IMG/VR virus record: IMGVR_UViG_3300023174_000595
Coordinates: 1 to 25,327 of that record
From: a virus
Strand: one strand, 5' to 3'
Length of the DNA: 25,327 nt
The position numbers and the translations under genes are program-made. Under the pieces are notes generated by a model. That model did no database searches. It worked only from the letters and a program-made list of their open reading frames with translations, and was not told where the DNA came from. Positions 10,911-18,688 of the stretch are shown in pieces. Position 1 is the stretch's first letter. Every line of letters begins with the position of its first letter.

Positions 10911-11798
10911 ATGGCAGCAACACTGGTTCTAAGAACGGTCAAAGGCACACCGTTAACAAATTATGAGGTTGACAACAACTTCTCTAATTTAAACACGTTT
11001 GGAGATGTTGTAAGCTCTAATATTGGCGTTCTTTCTGCGTTAACTACAGCAAGTACCAGTAATATTGTATTTGCTGTTAATAGTTTAGTAACAAGAGATA
11101 CAACTATAAATTCTAATATTGGTGTATTAACTAACCTTACTACAGTAACCCAAGCCAATATTGTAAGTGCTGTTAATGAAATTAAGTTGGGTAATTTAAG
11201 CCAGTTTGGTTCAACAACATCAGCGCAACTTGCATCCATTATTTCTAATGAAACAGGTTCAGGTAACTTAGTATTTTCTACTAGCCCAGCCCTGGAAACC
11301 CCATCTTTAGGGACACCATCGGTTATTATTCTAACCAACGCAACAGGAACTGCAAGCAATCTAACAGTAGGAAAAGTTACTATTACTGATGAAACAACTT
11401 CAGCAACTACTTACTACCCTATGTTGTCAGTTGGAACTTCCAGTGGCAATAGCGCAAATGTATCCAGTACAAAATTATCATTTACCCCTTCAACAGGTCT
11501 TTTGACATCTACGGATTATAATTCTTCTTCTGATATGACGCTAAAACAAGATTTTACTCTAATTCAAAATCCTTTAGATATTATTAGTCAGCTGACTGGA
11601 TTTGGATTTACCTGGAAAGATAGTAAAGAAAAAGCATACGGCTTATTAGCCCAAGAGGTTGAAAAGGTAATACCTGAAATCGTTAAAGATAGACCTGACG
11701 GAACTAAAGGTATTAATTATATGAACCTTACTGCCTTCTTAGTTGAAGCTATTAAGGATTTAAAACAAGAAATCACAGAGCTTAAGAAGCATAAATAA
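10911..11798 (+). CDS. Tail fibre with C-terminal peptidase S74 intramolecular chaperone domain (295 aa)
   Basis: The N-terminus LVLRTVKGTPLTNYEVDNNF is the usual opening of short fibres in marine T4-like phages. Residues about 30-100 contain two copies of a unit with SNIGVL, LTT and NIV-AVN, probably a helical or trimeric shaft. The C-terminal 90 residues form a peptidase S74 domain. The Ser-Asp-x-x-x-Lys arrangement places Ser207 and Lys212 as the likely autocleavage dyad, followed by LDIISQLTGFGFTWKD, YGLLAQEVEKVIPEIV and NYMNLTAFLVEAIKDL. In the family (endosialidase and T5 L-shaped fibre type) this domain promotes trimer folding and then cuts itself off. The mature fibre would end just before Ser207. 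An AAGGTA ribosome binding site and a late promoter precede it. Confidence 0.88.
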   Translation: MAATLVLRTVKGTPLTNYEVDNNFSNLNTFGDVVSSNIGVLSALTTASTSNIVFAVNSLVTRDTTINSNIGVLTNLTTVTQANIVSAVNEIKLGNLSQFGSTTSAQLASIISNETGSGNLVFSTSPALETPSLGTPSVIILTNATGTASNLTVGKVTITDETTSATTYYPMLSVGTSSGNSANVSSTKLSFTPSTGLLTSTDYNSSSDMTLKQDFTLIQNPLDIISQLTGFGFTWKDSKEKAYGLLAQEVEKVIPEIVKDRPDGTKGINYMNLTAFLVEAIKDLKQEITELKKHK

Positions 11799-11834: not shown

Positions 11835-12311
11835 ATGGCAATTAAAGTAGGCGGAACAACCGTCGTAGATGATACACGCGTTGCAAACGTTGCAAGCTTT
11901 CAAGTAAACGGTACCACGGTTGTAGATGGGTCCCGTAATCTTACAGTAGTTAATTCCACACCCACAGGTATACTTACGACTAAAAAAATCGTAGAAACAG
12001 TTGTGGCTATTGGCAATACAGGTACAGCAGCAACAATTGATCTTTCAAATGGTACATTGTTTACTGCTACACTTAACGGTAATGCTACATTAACAATTTC
12101 CAATCCAGGTGCGGTATCATCATTTACACTAGTGTTAACAAACGATGCATCTGCAGGTAGAACAGTTGCTTTTTCAGGGGGAACTATTAAGTACCCTGGC
12201 GGCACAGTAACCCGAACAACTACCGCTAATGCAGTAGACGTTTGGTTCTTTTTCACTCCCAACAGTGGAACGACATGGTACGCTTCCATTCCAATGGCAA
12301 ATCTTTCTTAA
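11835..12311 (+). CDS. Small tail-fibre-type structural protein (158 aa)
   Basis: The start is fixed by AAGGAG (11824-11829). Residues 1-40 hold two copies of a G-T-T-V-V-D motif (VGGTTVVDD and VNGTTVVDGSRNL). A related N-terminus occurs in the protein at 15520, so the motif may be a shared attachment segment. Residues about 60-158 form a beta domain with LFTATLNGNATLTI, SFTLVLTNDASAGRTVAF and YPGGT, ending in the aromatic run WFFFTP. This matches a C-terminal domain found in many phage fibre and tail-tip proteins. No enzymatic motif is seen. It is probably a virion protein at the tail periphery. Confidence 0.8.
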   Translation: MAIKVGGTTVVDDTRVANVASFQVNGTTVVDGSRNLTVVNSTPTGILTTKKIVETVVAIGNTGTAATIDLSNGTLFTATLNGNATLTISNPGAVSSFTLVLTNDASAGRTVAFSGGTIKYPGGTVTRTTTANAVDVWFFFTPNSGTTWYASIPMANLS

Positions 12312-12324
12312 CTAGGAGCATAAA

Positions 12325-12558
12325 ATGGCTTTAACATCAGATCAACAAGCATTAGTCGACGTACAAATAGCAATTGAAGCAGATCGCTTTACAAAAACTG
12401 AAGCAATAGAGAATAAACGAGCAAAGTTAGAAGCAATTCGCATGGCTCGCGAAACACTTACAGAAAACAATCGAAGCAAACCCGCAGATTCACGAGAAGT
12501 TACTGCTGCTGACATTACAACATTTGCAGCTTCTTTGATTGCATACGTTAACACCTAA
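12325..12558 (+). CDS. Small helical protein of unknown function (77 aa)
   Basis: A clear AGGAG precedes the ATG by a few bases and the gene follows the upstream stop by 13 bases. The protein is nearly all predicted helix (VDVQIAIEADRF, KRAKLEAIRMARETL) with a C-terminal segment EVTAADITTFAASLIAYV. It has no membrane segment and no recognised domain. Its place between two tail proteins suggests an assembly or accessory role. I do not recognise it. Confidence 0.7.
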   Translation: MALTSDQQALVDVQIAIEADRFTKTEAIENKRAKLEAIRMARETLTENNRSKPADSREVTAADITTFAASLIAYVNT

Positions 12559-12616: not shown

Positions 12617-13192
12617 ATGCAATATACTATGAATATACCGTACGCTAAAGAAGTACACCCGTACGTTTGGGATGATGATTGTTTTACTTCTAAAGAATTA
12701 GACATATTACAAGGCTATGCAAAAAACGCTGAATTCCCTGCTGTACTCGATACAGCAGGGTTTACTGATAGAGATGTCAGGCGTTCTTCTGTTACATGGA
12801 TAAATAATAATAATAAAAATGAATGGATATTCTCTAGACTTTCACAGGTAGTAGGTATTTTAAATGCACGGTTTTACGGATTTAACTTAACTGGATTTGG
12901 AGAAGCTTTGCAGCTTACTAATTATGATAGTACTGATAAAGGTATGTATAGGTGGCATCAAGACTATGCAGCTCAAGTTAGCCGTAAGTTATCTGTAGTA
13001 ATTCAACTTTCTGATCCTTCTGAGTATGATGGTGGAGAACTACAAATAATGACAGGGCCTCTCGATACTGTTAAAAAACAACGTGGGTTAGCTACAGTGT
13101 TTCCATCATGGGCAGTACATCAAGTTACTCCGGTAACAAGAGGTACGCGTCAAACTTTAGTAGCTTGGATTTCAGGACCAGATTTTATATGA
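12617..13192 (+). CDS. 2OG-Fe(II) oxygenase, prolyl-4-hydroxylase/PKHD type (191 aa)
   Basis: The fold signature is complete. The iron ligands are His114 and Asp116 (RWHQDYA) and His168 (FPSWAVHQVTPV), with Arg178 (GTRQTL) as the 2-oxoglutarate carboxylate binder, followed by VAWISGP. The core strand KLSVVIQLSDPSEYDGGEL is typical of the PKHD hydroxylase branch, which oxidises protein proline or other side chains using O2 and 2-oxoglutarate. Length fits a stand-alone catalytic domain. The ribosome binding site is poor (AAAGAATATAAC). The gene overlaps the next oxygenase by ATGA and lies 0.6 kb before a Gly/Pro-rich fibre protein, a plausible substrate. A perfect 10-bp inverted repeat lies within codons 40-48. 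The substrate is not shown by the sequence. Confidence 0.88.
   Translation: MQYTMNIPYAKEVHPYVWDDDCFTSKELDILQGYAKNAEFPAVLDTAGFTDRDVRRSSVTWINNNNKNEWIFSRLSQVVGILNARFYGFNLTGFGEALQLTNYDSTDKGMYRWHQDYAAQVSRKLSVVIQLSDPSEYDGGELQIMTGPLDTVKKQRGLATVFPSWAVHQVTPVTRGTRQTLVAWISGPDFI
12736..12760 (+). other. Strong hairpin inside the first oxygenase gene
   Basis: CCCTGCTGTA (12736-12745) and TACAGCAGGG (12751-12760) are perfect 10-bp arms separated by a 5-base loop and followed by TTT. It is the strongest stem I noticed in the window and lies inside a coding region (residues 40-48). It could pause or attenuate transcription into the oxygenase genes, or be coincidental. Confidence 0.6.
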
Positions 13193-13788
13193 ATATTAAA
13201 TACGAAGATTTTATTGGCATATATGACAATGTATTTCCTGAAGGGTACTGTAGTCATGTAATTCAGGAATTTGATCGACTTGAACAAGATTGCGTTGGTC
13301 ATAATAGACAGGTAACAGACCGTGTCGGTAAGCATATTAAAGATGATTATCAGATCATGATGAACGGTCGAACCATGAAAATGAACCCGTTTATGGAAAA
13401 CAACCCTGTAGATGTATTTTTAGATGGGTTGCAAAAATGTTATAATGAATATACAGAAAAGTATTCTGTATTAAAAGACGGTAATATACGCGGGGAAGCA
13501 ATTAAGTTACAGCGTACAGCACCTGGTGGGGGATACCATGTATGGCACGGTGAACAAAATCACAGGAATGGTGCCGCCAATCGCGTACTGGTTTATATGC
13601 TGTATTTAAATACGCTACCGTTAGAGAATGCGGGAGAGACAGAGTTTTTATATCAGAAAAAACGCTTTAATCCTATTGAGAATCGTTTACTTATTTGGCC
13701 TGCAGCCTATACCCATGCCCATCGCGGTAATACGGTATTTGGCGAACAGTCTAAGTATATCGCAACTGGTTGGTTTTACTTCGATTAA
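13189..13788 (+). CDS. Second 2OG-Fe(II) oxygenase (199 aa)
   Basis: I chose the ATG at 13189, which overlaps the preceding stop as ATGA. An upstream start at 13108 would only overprint the first oxygenase. The catalytic core reads LQRTAPGGGYHVWHGEQ, giving a probable H-x-E pair (His120, Glu122). A strand RVLVYMLYLNTL, then AGETEFLYQ, follows. The distal histidine is His176 or His178 (YTHAHRGN), and Lys190 (SKYIATGWF) is a likely 2-oxoglutarate contact. This arrangement is known from oxygenases in cyanophage genomes; Glu instead of Asp in the iron triad is a noted variation. The sequence is clearly diverged from its neighbour at 12617, so this is not a recent duplication. Tandem placement suggests related or sequential substrates. 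Confidence 0.85.
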   Translation: MNIKYEDFIGIYDNVFPEGYCSHVIQEFDRLEQDCVGHNRQVTDRVGKHIKDDYQIMMNGRTMKMNPFMENNPVDVFLDGLQKCYNEYTEKYSVLKDGNIRGEAIKLQRTAPGGGYHVWHGEQNHRNGAANRVLVYMLYLNTLPLENAGETEFLYQKKRFNPIENRLLIWPAAYTHAHRGNTVFGEQSKYIATGWFYFD

Positions 13789-13798
13789 GGTAAAAAAA

Positions 13799-14692
13799 AT
13801 GGCTATTGGAACATCAAAAATTGGAGTGCTTGGCGGGAAACCTATAACCCCTGGAGGCACGCAAACATTTAATTCCTCTGGGACTTTTTCTGTTCCTACT
13901 GGTATAACAAGAGTTTCAATTACAGGTCAAGGAGGCCCGGGTAGCCCCGGTAACCCCGGTAACCCTGGTAACTGTGGTATTGGTGGCGCCGGGGGTAGAG
14001 GAGGTTCTGGGGGAGGAGCTGGGGCTCGAGGTGGCTGTGGAGGGGTGTATAACTCTGGAGCTGGTTCTTCCGGTAACCCAGGTAATATCTCTAATACACC
14101 TGGTAACTCTGGAGCATCTTCTTCTGGATTTGGTTTTACCTGGAATGGAGGACCTGGAGGTAACCCTGGTAACGCCGGTAACGGTGGTACAGGTGGTAAT
14201 ACAGGCAGCCAAGGGGCAGCTGGCGCCCAAGACGGGTCTTCATACCCAGTTCACGGCGGCGGCGGTGCTGCAGGAAATCCTGGAGGCAGCCCAGGTTCCC
14301 CTGGCACTAATGGTCCCCCAAGCCCGTGTGGAAGCAGATCAAGAGGGGGCCCCGGTGGTGCTGGAGGAGGGGGTACACCCGGTGGTTCTGGTGCTATTTA
14401 TTATAACTGCCAATACGCAAGACAAGGTGCTTCCGGTGGTCCTATAGGGCCAACTTATGGTGGCGGCGGTGGTGGTGGTGAATTGGGTTACAATAATGCT
14501 GTATATGGATTCAGGGGCGCCAGTGGTGGTGGTGGTGGAGGAGGTGGGGGAGGAGGCGGTAACCCCGGTAACTCTGCCAACCCTGGTAATGCCGGTGGTA
14601 CTACCACTTATAATTGCCAGACCGTTGCAGGAAACTACGCAGTGACAGTTGGTTCTGGAGGCTTTGTTAATGTTACGTGGAACCCTCAATAA
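13799..14692 (+). CDS. Gly/Pro-rich collagen-like tail adhesin (297 aa)
   Basis: The ATG at 13799 follows the oxygenase stop by ten bases with AAGG upstream; longer in-frame starts would overlap the oxygenase. Residues about 20-40 form a beta strand entry (TQTFNSSGTFSVPTGITRVS). From about 43 to 275 the chain is dominated by glycine, with many P-G-N triplets (PGSPGNPGNPGN near the start and others later) and long glycine runs. Five or so cysteines lie in the rich region (NCG, GGCGG, SPCGS, YNCQ). The end returns to strands (AVTVGSGGFVNVTWNP). This resembles polyglycine-II-type tips such as the T-even gp38 adhesins, here with a collagen-like proline component. It probably binds the host receptor at a fibre tip. 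The stop overlaps the next ATG (TAATG). Local composition is GC-rich because of glycine codons. Confidence 0.82.
   Translation: MAIGTSKIGVLGGKPITPGGTQTFNSSGTFSVPTGITRVSITGQGGPGSPGNPGNPGNCGIGGAGGRGGSGGGAGARGGCGGVYNSGAGSSGNPGNISNTPGNSGASSSGFGFTWNGGPGGNPGNAGNGGTGGNTGSQGAAGAQDGSSYPVHGGGGAAGNPGGSPGSPGTNGPPSPCGSRSRGGPGGAGGGGTPGGSGAIYYNCQYARQGASGGPIGPTYGGGGGGGELGYNNAVYGFRGASGGGGGGGGGGGGNPGNSANPGNAGGTTTYNCQTVAGNYAVTVGSGGFVNVTWNPQ
13940..13975 (+). repeat. 9-bp tandem repeats (GGTAACCCC-type) in the adhesin
   Basis: Four consecutive 9-base units, GGTAGCCCC, GGTAACCCC, GGTAACCCT and GGTAACTGT, encode GSP-GNP-GNP-GNC. Similar GGTAACCC clusters recur near 14160 and 14560. They provide homology for expansion or recombination within the tip protein. 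Confidence 0.85.
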
Positions 14693-15159
14693 TGGACACA
14701 AAACTTAGAAAAGCAATTGATGCTCACAATACAAAAATGACCCTTGAAAGTATGGAAGGCGAGAAAGATCGCGCCCGATCGGTAACAGTCGGAACAGCTT
14801 TTGGGGGTGTAACCGAGATAGGAATGCGGTCACGTACCGGTACTTATGTTTGGTGTATATTACAACCTACAGAAGTTACAGAATTAATTCACCAACTGGC
14901 AGCTAATATTGGTTGCCATATTGGTATAAAGCCTCGTGAAGACTTTGGTAGCTGGAGACATTGGAAAGAAACCGATACTCCATTACTTGGAGGAGATGGT
15001 AGCGGGTGGGCACCTCACCCAAATCACCCTCCTATGGCTAAAATTAAACATGAAAATCAACCCGGGCTTAACAAGCCCTCAAGGAGTAACGAAGATGCTA
15101 TGGCAACTGAAAAAAATATCAACCGGCGAAATACTAAACGAGCCGCAAAAACTACCTAA
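14692..15159 (+). CDS. Conserved-looking protein of unknown function (155 aa)
   Basis: The ATG at 14692 overlaps the adhesin stop (TAATG). The N-terminal half is charged and helical (KLRKAIDAHNTKM, MEGEKDRAR), then VTVGTAFGGVTEI and an alternating core TYVWCILQPTEVTELIHQLA. A histidine-rich segment APHPNHPPMAK follows. The final 21 residues are strongly basic and overlap the first 65 bases of the next gene in another frame, so they are probably an unconstrained tail. I do not recognise a domain. Position between an adhesin and a tail assembly chaperone suggests a virion or assembly role. Confidence 0.72.
   Translation: MDTKLRKAIDAHNTKMTLESMEGEKDRARSVTVGTAFGGVTEIGMRSRTGTYVWCILQPTEVTELIHQLAANIGCHIGIKPREDFGSWRHWKETDTPLLGGDGSGWAPHPNHPPMAKIKHENQPGLNKPSRSNEDAMATEKNINRRNTKRAAKTT
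15064..15078 (+). other. Hairpin just upstream of a ribosome binding site
   Basis: GGGCTT (15064-15069) and AAGCCC (15073-15078) form a perfect 6-bp stem with loop AAC, ending two bases before the AAGGAG that serves the gene at 15095. No T-tract follows, so termination is unlikely; an effect on translation of the chaperone is more plausible. Confidence 0.5.
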
Positions 15160-15478
15160 CAACTGGGGTCCTATTTTTGGACTAGATGGTATTCAAGACC
15201 GTCTTGGTGATCTTTCATGGTTGGGAGAAGCATACAATGACCAGGGGTGGTTTGTTGTTGGAGAAGCCCCTGCTGAACCTGCTCAAGCTACTGCTGCTGA
15301 GCTGGCCTGGGATCGTGCTAAGAAGTTGTTATGGGAGTCTGATTGGAGTATGCTGTCAGATGTACCTATGACAGCTGGGGACAAAGTTTTATGGATTGAA
15401 TATCGAAGAGCTTTGAGAGATATTCGTTTGCAATCAGGGTTTCCTTCTGATATTCAATGGCCTGTTAAGCCAGCTTAA
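15095..15478 (+). CDS. Tail (fibre) assembly chaperone, Phage_tail_APC type (127 aa)
   Basis: I start the gene at the ATG at 15095, eight bases after a perfect AAGGAG (15081-15086). The longer open frame upstream overprints the previous gene and lacks similarity. The N-terminal part reads MLWQLKKISTGEILNEPQ, LPNNWGPIFGLDGI and LSWLGEAYNDQGWFVV. Residues about 68-127 carry the tail assembly chaperone signature: WDRAKKLLWESDWSML, then YRRALRDIRLQSGFP and IQWPVKP at the end. Such proteins help fold or attach tail fibres and are often encoded directly after the fibre tip. Here it would serve the Gly/Pro-rich adhesin. It overlaps the preceding gene by 65 bases in a different frame. Confidence 0.82.
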   Translation: MLWQLKKISTGEILNEPQKLPNNWGPIFGLDGIQDRLGDLSWLGEAYNDQGWFVVGEAPAEPAQATAAELAWDRAKKLLWESDWSMLSDVPMTAGDKVLWIEYRRALRDIRLQSGFPSDIQWPVKPA

Positions 15479-17933: not shown

Positions 17934-17939
17934 TATAAT
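17934..17939 (+). promoter_or_regulatory. Possible -10-like element TATAAT
   Basis: TATAAT lies in the 66-base gap before the third oxygenase, 26 bases upstream of its ATG, within an imperfect palindrome GTATA-TATAATTG-TATAC. No good -35 box is seen at normal spacing and there is no TATAAATA. It might allow expression apart from the late promoters; the evidence is thin. Confidence 0.25.
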
Positions 17940-17965
17940 TGTATACATTATTTACAAGATATACT

Positions 17966-18688
17966 ATGACAAAAACTTTACCCAAGAAGACATCTAAGAA
18001 ACCAGTTAAGACAAAACAATCGGTTACTGAAGTAGCTCCAAATACTCAACTTCAAGTTGCACACCATTTTCCTTGTCCAATTTACTTAATAGACCGTCCA
18101 GATTTTTTAGAAACCGTTAGTGCTGTATCTGAAGAGAATCTTGAGATTTCTCGTAAAGAACGTGATCTCAATGAAATATACCCTGTCTATATGACGGAAA
18201 ACTTCTTTGGAGATTCCCGTATGGCAGGGTTTTCAGAGTTTGTTGGTGCAACTGCATGGAATATTCTTAACGAACAGGGTTATGCTATGCAGGACATGGC
18301 TGTAGCATTTACAGAAATGTGGACTCAAGAACATCATAAGCATTCAGCCATGGATGCTCACGTACACGGGTTTGGTTCACAGATTGTAGGGTTCTACTTT
18401 CTTGAGACCCCCGATAATGGTTCTCATGTAGTGTTTCATGATCCCCGTTCGGCTAAAGTACAGATAGATTTACCTGAACGCGATATGAATATGGCTACCC
18501 CGGCAAGTAAAGCAATTAACTTTACCCCTAAACCAGGTTTAATGATCTTTGCTAATTCCTGGTTATCGCATTCTTTTACCCGTCATGCAGCAGATAAACC
18601 TATTAAGTTTGTTCACTTCAACCTAACTGTAATACCTGCAGCAAATAACACGTGTGATATTCCACCTCCTGCAGCAGAAATTGTATGA
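17966..18688 (+). CDS. Third 2OG-Fe(II) oxygenase-like protein, 2OG-FeII_Oxy_5 type (240 aa)
   Basis: I chose the ATG at 17966 rather than the upstream TTG. The first 25 residues are Lys/Pro/Thr-rich and probably disordered. The core contains FPCPIYLIDRPDFL, FTEMWTQEHHKHSAMDAHVH, then GSQIVGFYFLETPDNGSHVVF and HDPRSAK. The probable metal ligands are His132 and/or His134, and His202 (FANSWLSHSF), with a C-terminal strand KFVHFNLTV. This matches the layout of the putative oxygenase family widespread in marine phages, which uses an H-x-H region instead of the standard H-x-D. Whether it is an active hydroxylase is unproven. It is unlike the two oxygenases at 12617 and 13189. The stop overlaps the next ATG (ATGA). 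Confidence 0.78.
   Translation: MTKTLPKKTSKKPVKTKQSVTEVAPNTQLQVAHHFPCPIYLIDRPDFLETVSAVSEENLEISRKERDLNEIYPVYMTENFFGDSRMAGFSEFVGATAWNILNEQGYAMQDMAVAFTEMWTQEHHKHSAMDAHVHGFGSQIVGFYFLETPDNGSHVVFHDPRSAKVQIDLPERDMNMATPASKAINFTPKPGLMIFANSWLSHSFTRHAADKPIKFVHFNLTVIPAANNTCDIPPPAAEIV

Follow-up and report, generated by a model that had tools for sequence, protein, structure and literature searches.

The receptor-binding tips of phages S16 and PP01 (gp38) and Pam3 (gp24) are rich in glycine, as is the tip protein considered here. The Pam3 fibre tip combines a TNF-like and a glycine-rich part, resembles S16 gp38 and ALK, and is folded with the chaperone gp25 (PMC9608196). The tip gene of the present locus is likewise trailed by a gene for a Tfa-type chaperone. 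Unlike this tip, S16 and T2 gp38 have few prolines in their Gly-rich part, and no oxygenase gene is annotated within the stretches of these phages that were examined, whereas two precede the tip gene described here.

2OG-Fe(II) oxygenases are numerous in marine phages, with 24 in one isolate, and their functions have "not been specifically investigated" (PMC9602691). A Baltic survey called the use of prolyl 4-hydroxylase by viruses "cryptic" and noted that collagen can form part of viral tail fibres (PMC9301287). The oxygenases of the present locus match phrog_61 (OX1 and OX2) and phrog_81 (OX3), two groups of marine-phage enzymes published as host-metabolic; the present proposal is that they act on a particular protein of the virion. 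In the literature searched, mostly non-subscription papers, no paper linking a phage oxygenase to a tail tip was found.

Among characterised enzymes, the viral collagen prolyl hydroxylase of PBCV-1 (vCPH, 5c5t) is a virus-encoded 2OG-Fe(II) enzyme, like OX2, which matches it at profile level (E 4e-6). It differs in coming from a eukaryotic algal virus and in sharing only ~17% identity with OX2, and the accessible part of its description does not mention a polyglycine tip encoded next door. The prolyl 4-hydroxylase (P4H) of Bacillus (3itq, 5hv0) and the EF-Tu prolyl hydroxylase of P. putida (4iw3, 4j25) are bacterial prolyl hydroxylases and the top profile and structural matches of OX2, but they are cellular enzymes outside any phage tail operon. 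Their metal motif is H-x-D, whereas that of OX2 is H-x-E.

The oxygenases and their operon

The window, that is, the whole stretch of DNA analysed, is a 25.3-kb virus record that carries a myovirus-type baseplate and tail-fibre operon; a megablast search with it matched no phage record. The features of interest are the following:

10911–11798, + strand: tail fibre/baseplate protein with a C-terminal S74 intramolecular chaperone
11835–12558, + strand: two small genes directly 5' of OX1, for a 158-aa fibre-like protein and a 77-aa protein
12617–13192, + strand: OX1, 2OG-Fe(II) oxygenase, 191 aa (PF13640, E 8e-15; phrog_61)
13189–13788, + strand: OX2, 2OG-Fe(II) oxygenase with a predicted prolyl-hydroxylase fold, 199 aa (PF13640, E 1e-10; phrog_61; model)
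13799–14692, + strand: Gly/Pro/Asn-rich tail-tip protein, 297 aa, the proposed substrate (composition, model)
14692–15159, + strand: 155-aa protein, function unassigned (counterpart behind the tip gene in relatives; 'RARSVTVGTAFGG...' motif)
15095–15478, + strand: tail fibre assembly chaperone (Phage_tail_APC/Tfa-like), the predicted tip chaperone (Phage_tail_APC, E 1e-14; compare Pam3 gp25, PMC9608196)
15953–17254, + strand: second Gly-rich tip, with Ig/fn3 repeats and a Gly-rich tip, predicted to be unmodified
17939–18688, + strand: OX3, third 2OG-Fe(II) oxygenase (PF13759/TIGR02466-like, phrog_81; likely ATG at 17966)

OX1 and OX2 overlap by 4 nt, the ATG of OX2 at 13189 lying over the stop codon of OX1 as ATGA. 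This ATG is the natural start of OX2; the list of open reading frames has an upstream one at 13108. The tip gene begins 10 nt behind the OX2 stop, so that the gene order is the one described in an earlier note on this DNA. OX3 and the second Gly-rich tip, which belong to the same operon, were absent from that note. Nearly all loci arranged in this way have a counterpart of the 155-aa gene behind the tip gene. Its product matches no Pfam or PHROG family, and a sequence search for relatives of the window's own gene found none; the protein may act as a further chaperone or serve to attach the tip.

Both OX1 and OX2 belong to the 2OG-Fe(II) oxygenase superfamily, with a conserved triad and basic residue and PF13640 matches above the cut-off. 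In an alignment of 21 OX1 sequences, H114, D116, H168 and R178 are invariant, which confirms the residues picked out in the earlier note. For OX2, the note had named His120 and Glu122 and left the distal ligand between His176 and His178. Across 32 aligned sequences, H120, E122, H178 and K189 are invariant and H176 only nearly so; H178 is therefore taken as the distal ligand, and K189 is likely the 2OG-binding residue.

The closest solved relative of OX2 by profile is the Bacillus P4H (E 4e-9). Its AlphaFold model (pLDDT 91.6) is nearest in fold to the prolyl hydroxylases of the P4H/PHD group. The best 50 VIA-align entries are all peptidyl-prolyl hydroxylases (Z 18.3–20.8); they are headed by the P. 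putida EF-Tu enzyme (Z 20.8) and include PHD2, an algal P4H and PBCV-1 vCPH, the last of which ranks first in Foldseek. The nearest solved relatives of OX1 by profile are PiuC-type PKHD hydroxylases (E 9e-15), followed by the P. putida EF-Tu prolyl hydroxylase and P4Hs.

Composition and predicted fold of the tip

The tip protein contains 25 prolines, 22 of them within Gly-rich stretches, and has 12 X-Pro-Gly motifs against 3 Gly-Pro-X, together with 9 G-N-x-G. The Gly/Pro-rich composition reported in the earlier note is thus correct, but its description of the fibre as collagen-like had to be given up: at E 0.1, Pfam gives no match to collagen, variable segments break up the runs of Gly triplets, and the model finds its matches among TNF-like/Gly-rich tips and not in a triple helix. 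The protein has no Pfam or PHROG family match at all. Among its relatives, conserved Gly-rich blocks alternate with variable segments, as is characteristic of polyglycine-II tips. The best structural match of the tip model (pLDDT 81.8, pTM 0.63) is Pam3 gp24 (7ypx; Z 6.3 over 81 residues, 24% identity), and the next best is the Gly-rich domain of ALK, both with middling scores. Since Pam3 gp24 is a TNF-like/glycine-rich tip (PMC9608196), the window's protein is predicted to consist of a TNF-like head and a polyglycine-II type lattice of the Pam3 gp24/S16 gp38 type, and to be served by the Tfa-type chaperone. The second Gly-rich tip offers an internal contrast: its 182 Gly-zone residues hold neither X-Pro-Gly nor G-N-x-G, and it is predicted to remain unmodified.

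Distribution of tips and oxygenases in other phages

A search of IMG/VR with OX2 returned at least 80 loci. Where OX2 shares at least ~45% identity, the order OX3-OX1-OX2-(OX4)-tip-155 aa-chaperone recurs, with variants, and a Gly/Pro tip stands directly behind OX2 or OX4 wherever the contig is long enough; in L004, the tip stands before OX1-OX2. OX3 is placed just 5' of OX1 in these other loci, unlike in the window. OX4, a fourth gene between OX2 and the tip in many relatives, has invariant H101, D103 and H153 and is regarded as oxygenase-like on the basis of this motif and a sub-threshold Pfam match. Apparent 360-aa OX1 fusions in four loci (L005, L016, L019, L024) were rejected as out-of-frame readings over OX3, an artefact of ORF picking. 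More distant OX2 homologues in IMG/VR do not adjoin such tips, and no tip combining both motifs in quantity was seen next to cellular homologues (Massilia, Lysobacter, ~30% identity). A contig of a Verrucomicrobiales MAG (L329, JARGNI010000079.1) carries OX1-OX2-tip-chaperone in the window's order; it probably stems from a phage and was binned with the MAG. In L047, a 1563-aa collagen-like fibre with GPQ repeats (L047:3280-7968) lies immediately 5' of OX2. Its prolines occur almost only after glycine, whereas those of the Gly/Pro tip in the same locus precede glycine, which makes the pair a natural contrast.

Two scans were not seeded by oxygenases. The first looked for DNA encoding GNPGN[AP]GN: among the matches listed, an oxygenase lay within 2.5 kb of 29 of the 33 eligible Gly-rich ORFs, compared with 0/16 in a poly-Gly control, likewise among the matches listed. 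Two of the four exceptions do have OX1 (on the opposite strand of the same contig in L102; 4 kb downstream, past three tandem Gly-rich genes, in L112), and the other two (L144, L178) are poor in X-Pro-Gly. As the control was weakly matched, only 3 of its ORFs having the tip head motif, a second scan selected loci by this motif (GTFTVPxGV) alone, which gave 61 ORFs with flanks among the matches listed. Tips were called rich if they had at least three G-N-x-G and at least three X-Pro-Gly, thresholds chosen within this analysis and not independently beforehand. Among these matches, an oxygenase was found within 2.5 kb of 12/13 rich tips and of 1/48 other Gly-rich tips (Fisher 9.5e-11, with related sequences counted as independent). 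When no thresholds are applied, the densities still differ for X-Pro-Gly (p 1e-5) and G-N-x-G (p 5e-8), although the p-values of the scans are optimistic, since the loci are related and the figures come from the matches listed. The density of X-Pro-Gly per 100 Gly-zone residues is 3.5 for OX2-linked tips, 5.2 for long fibres and 0.8 for unlinked tips.

This is the co-occurrence survey suggested in the earlier note, which regarded independent occurrence of oxygenases and Gly/Pro tips as speaking against its reading. Independence was seen in one direction: cyanophages have homologues of the oxygenases without such tips, but such tips almost never occur without an oxygenase. Among X-Pro-Gly-rich loci with flanks, 46 of 50 have an oxygenase nearby (OX1 in 46, OX2 in 41), in the form of upstream sets of four, of OX1 alone 3' of fibres of 590–1395 aa, or of genes on both sides. 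Very long Gly/Asn/Pro-repeat fibres of 1091–1599 aa were also encountered (L142:7678-11862, L095, L087:3753-7262, L103, L124:1659-4931). Their X-Pro-Gly count reaches 84, Gly-Pro-X is scarce in them, and most are followed by OX1.

The pairing thus occurs in several gene orders, those of cultured pelagiphages among them. In HTVC023P, OX1-, OX3- and OX4-like genes (gp65–67) come after a tandem array of four Gly/Pro-rich proteins (gp59–62); its tips are rich in proline, with no pre-Gly bias. HTVC008M carries five oxygenase-like genes ~1 kb from a Gly-rich protein on the opposite strand, which has 7 X-Pro-Gly and no Gly-Pro-X. In isolated cyanophages, homologues of the oxygenases lie beside ordinary fibres lacking the motifs, or beside none, and the superfamily must therefore have other substrates as well.

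Some phage proteins annotated as 'ferrochelatase' (phrog_2954, phrog_3531) are homologous to OX4 and share a conserved H-x-D...H-W-R. Examples are L010:3171-3758, HTVC023P gp67 (L514:8848-9468) and its HTVC008M homologue (L515:8977-9618); for the latter two, no Pfam match, including to the ferrochelatase family, was obtained at E 1. Judged by their sequences, these 'ferrochelatases' are probably 2OG oxygenases under a wrong name. This would weaken the reading of the two as partner genes, 'oxygenase plus ferrochelatase'.

Proposed role and alternatives

It is fairly probable that the oxygenases hydroxylate the adjacent tip protein during assembly, the cassette being a virion-maturation module. 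The earlier note had reached the same idea with a collagen-like substrate in mind. That substrate has been abandoned, but the circumstantial evidence for action on the neighbouring tip is strong and consists of the place of OX2 among peptidyl-prolyl hydroxylases and the tight linkage in the survey. As to substrate, residue, timing and effect, we infer the following course. Expressed late, OX1 and OX2 would hydroxylate the newly made tip protein, aided by OX3 and, in the many relatives that have it, by OX4. This would take place before or during the folding of the protein by the Tfa-type chaperone, which gives rise to a polyglycine-II lattice at the fibre's end. The hydroxyls would come to lie on the outer faces of the polyglycine-II helices, where they may yield a stiffer or hydrated lattice and/or an altered receptor-binding surface.

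Collagen-type prolyl 4-hydroxylases act on proline in the X-Pro-Gly context. In the G-X-Y-G triplets of OX2-linked tips, proline is found 300 times at Y and 26 times at X, and asparagine 505 times at X and 44 times at Y. Bacterial and viral collagens show no preference for proline at Y, which has been attributed to a missing prolyl hydroxylase (PMC3368898); the preference in OX2-linked tips fits proline hydroxylation. Unlinked tips also favour proline before glycine (30 v 7), so that the register may be structural, and by itself it was rejected as a mark of a hydroxylase substrate. Moreover, linked and unlinked tips are told apart better by G-N-x-G than by X-Pro-Gly, and proline may therefore not be the target. 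The proline of X-Pro-Gly is most likely the leading target, and the asparagine of G-Asn-x-G is compatible with being an alternative or second one.

The oxygenases could instead have their target elsewhere, be it a translation factor, a molecule on the host surface or a different fibre protein. The best structural match of OX2 is an enzyme whose substrate is a translation factor, OX1 is nearest to PiuC rather than to P4Hs, and cyanophage OX2 homologues adjoin other tail fibres; yet a target elsewhere is unlikely, as it leaves unexplained why Pro/Asn-rich tips need the enzymes close by. Another reading, published for 2OG oxygenases of cyanophages and pelagiphages (PMC9602691, PMC9599517), sees them as auxiliary metabolic genes acting on the 2-oxoglutarate, iron or nitrogen metabolism of the host. 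On that view they would simply be located in the hypervariable tail-fibre region, and the host-recognition region of T4-like marine phages does house cargo genes (PMC7029224). A cargo position predicts neither a tie to one tip composition but not to other Gly-rich tips, nor 4-nt overlaps and a conserved order around tip and chaperone, which makes this reading quite unlikely. That a single successful phage lineage carries oxygenases and tip with no functional tie agrees with the relatedness of many loci and the few label changes on the trees (8 needed and at least 3 forced for OX2; one switch between upstream and downstream position for OX1), but it is very unlikely, given that the pairing recurs across tip architectures (300–450 aa tips, 550–1600 aa fibres) and in differing gene orders, on the opposite strand in HTVC008M and downstream in HTVC023P.

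Hydroxylation of the adjacent tip thus remains the preferred reading, and the linkage provides a concrete candidate substrate for marine-phage oxygenases that is directly testable in cultured phages. The wider proposal is put forward tentatively, at a little under even chances: marine phages would possess a dedicated pathway of two to four oxygenases modifying proline and asparagine of polyglycine-II tail tips. If true, there would be receptor-binding proteins with hydroxylated residues, dependent on the oxygen, iron and 2-oxoglutarate of the host. The modification would be missing from tips expressed without the enzymes, and host prediction from sequence would not see it. In that case, a share of the 'auxiliary metabolic' oxygenases of ocean phages, together with their 'ferrochelatases', would serve virion maturation.
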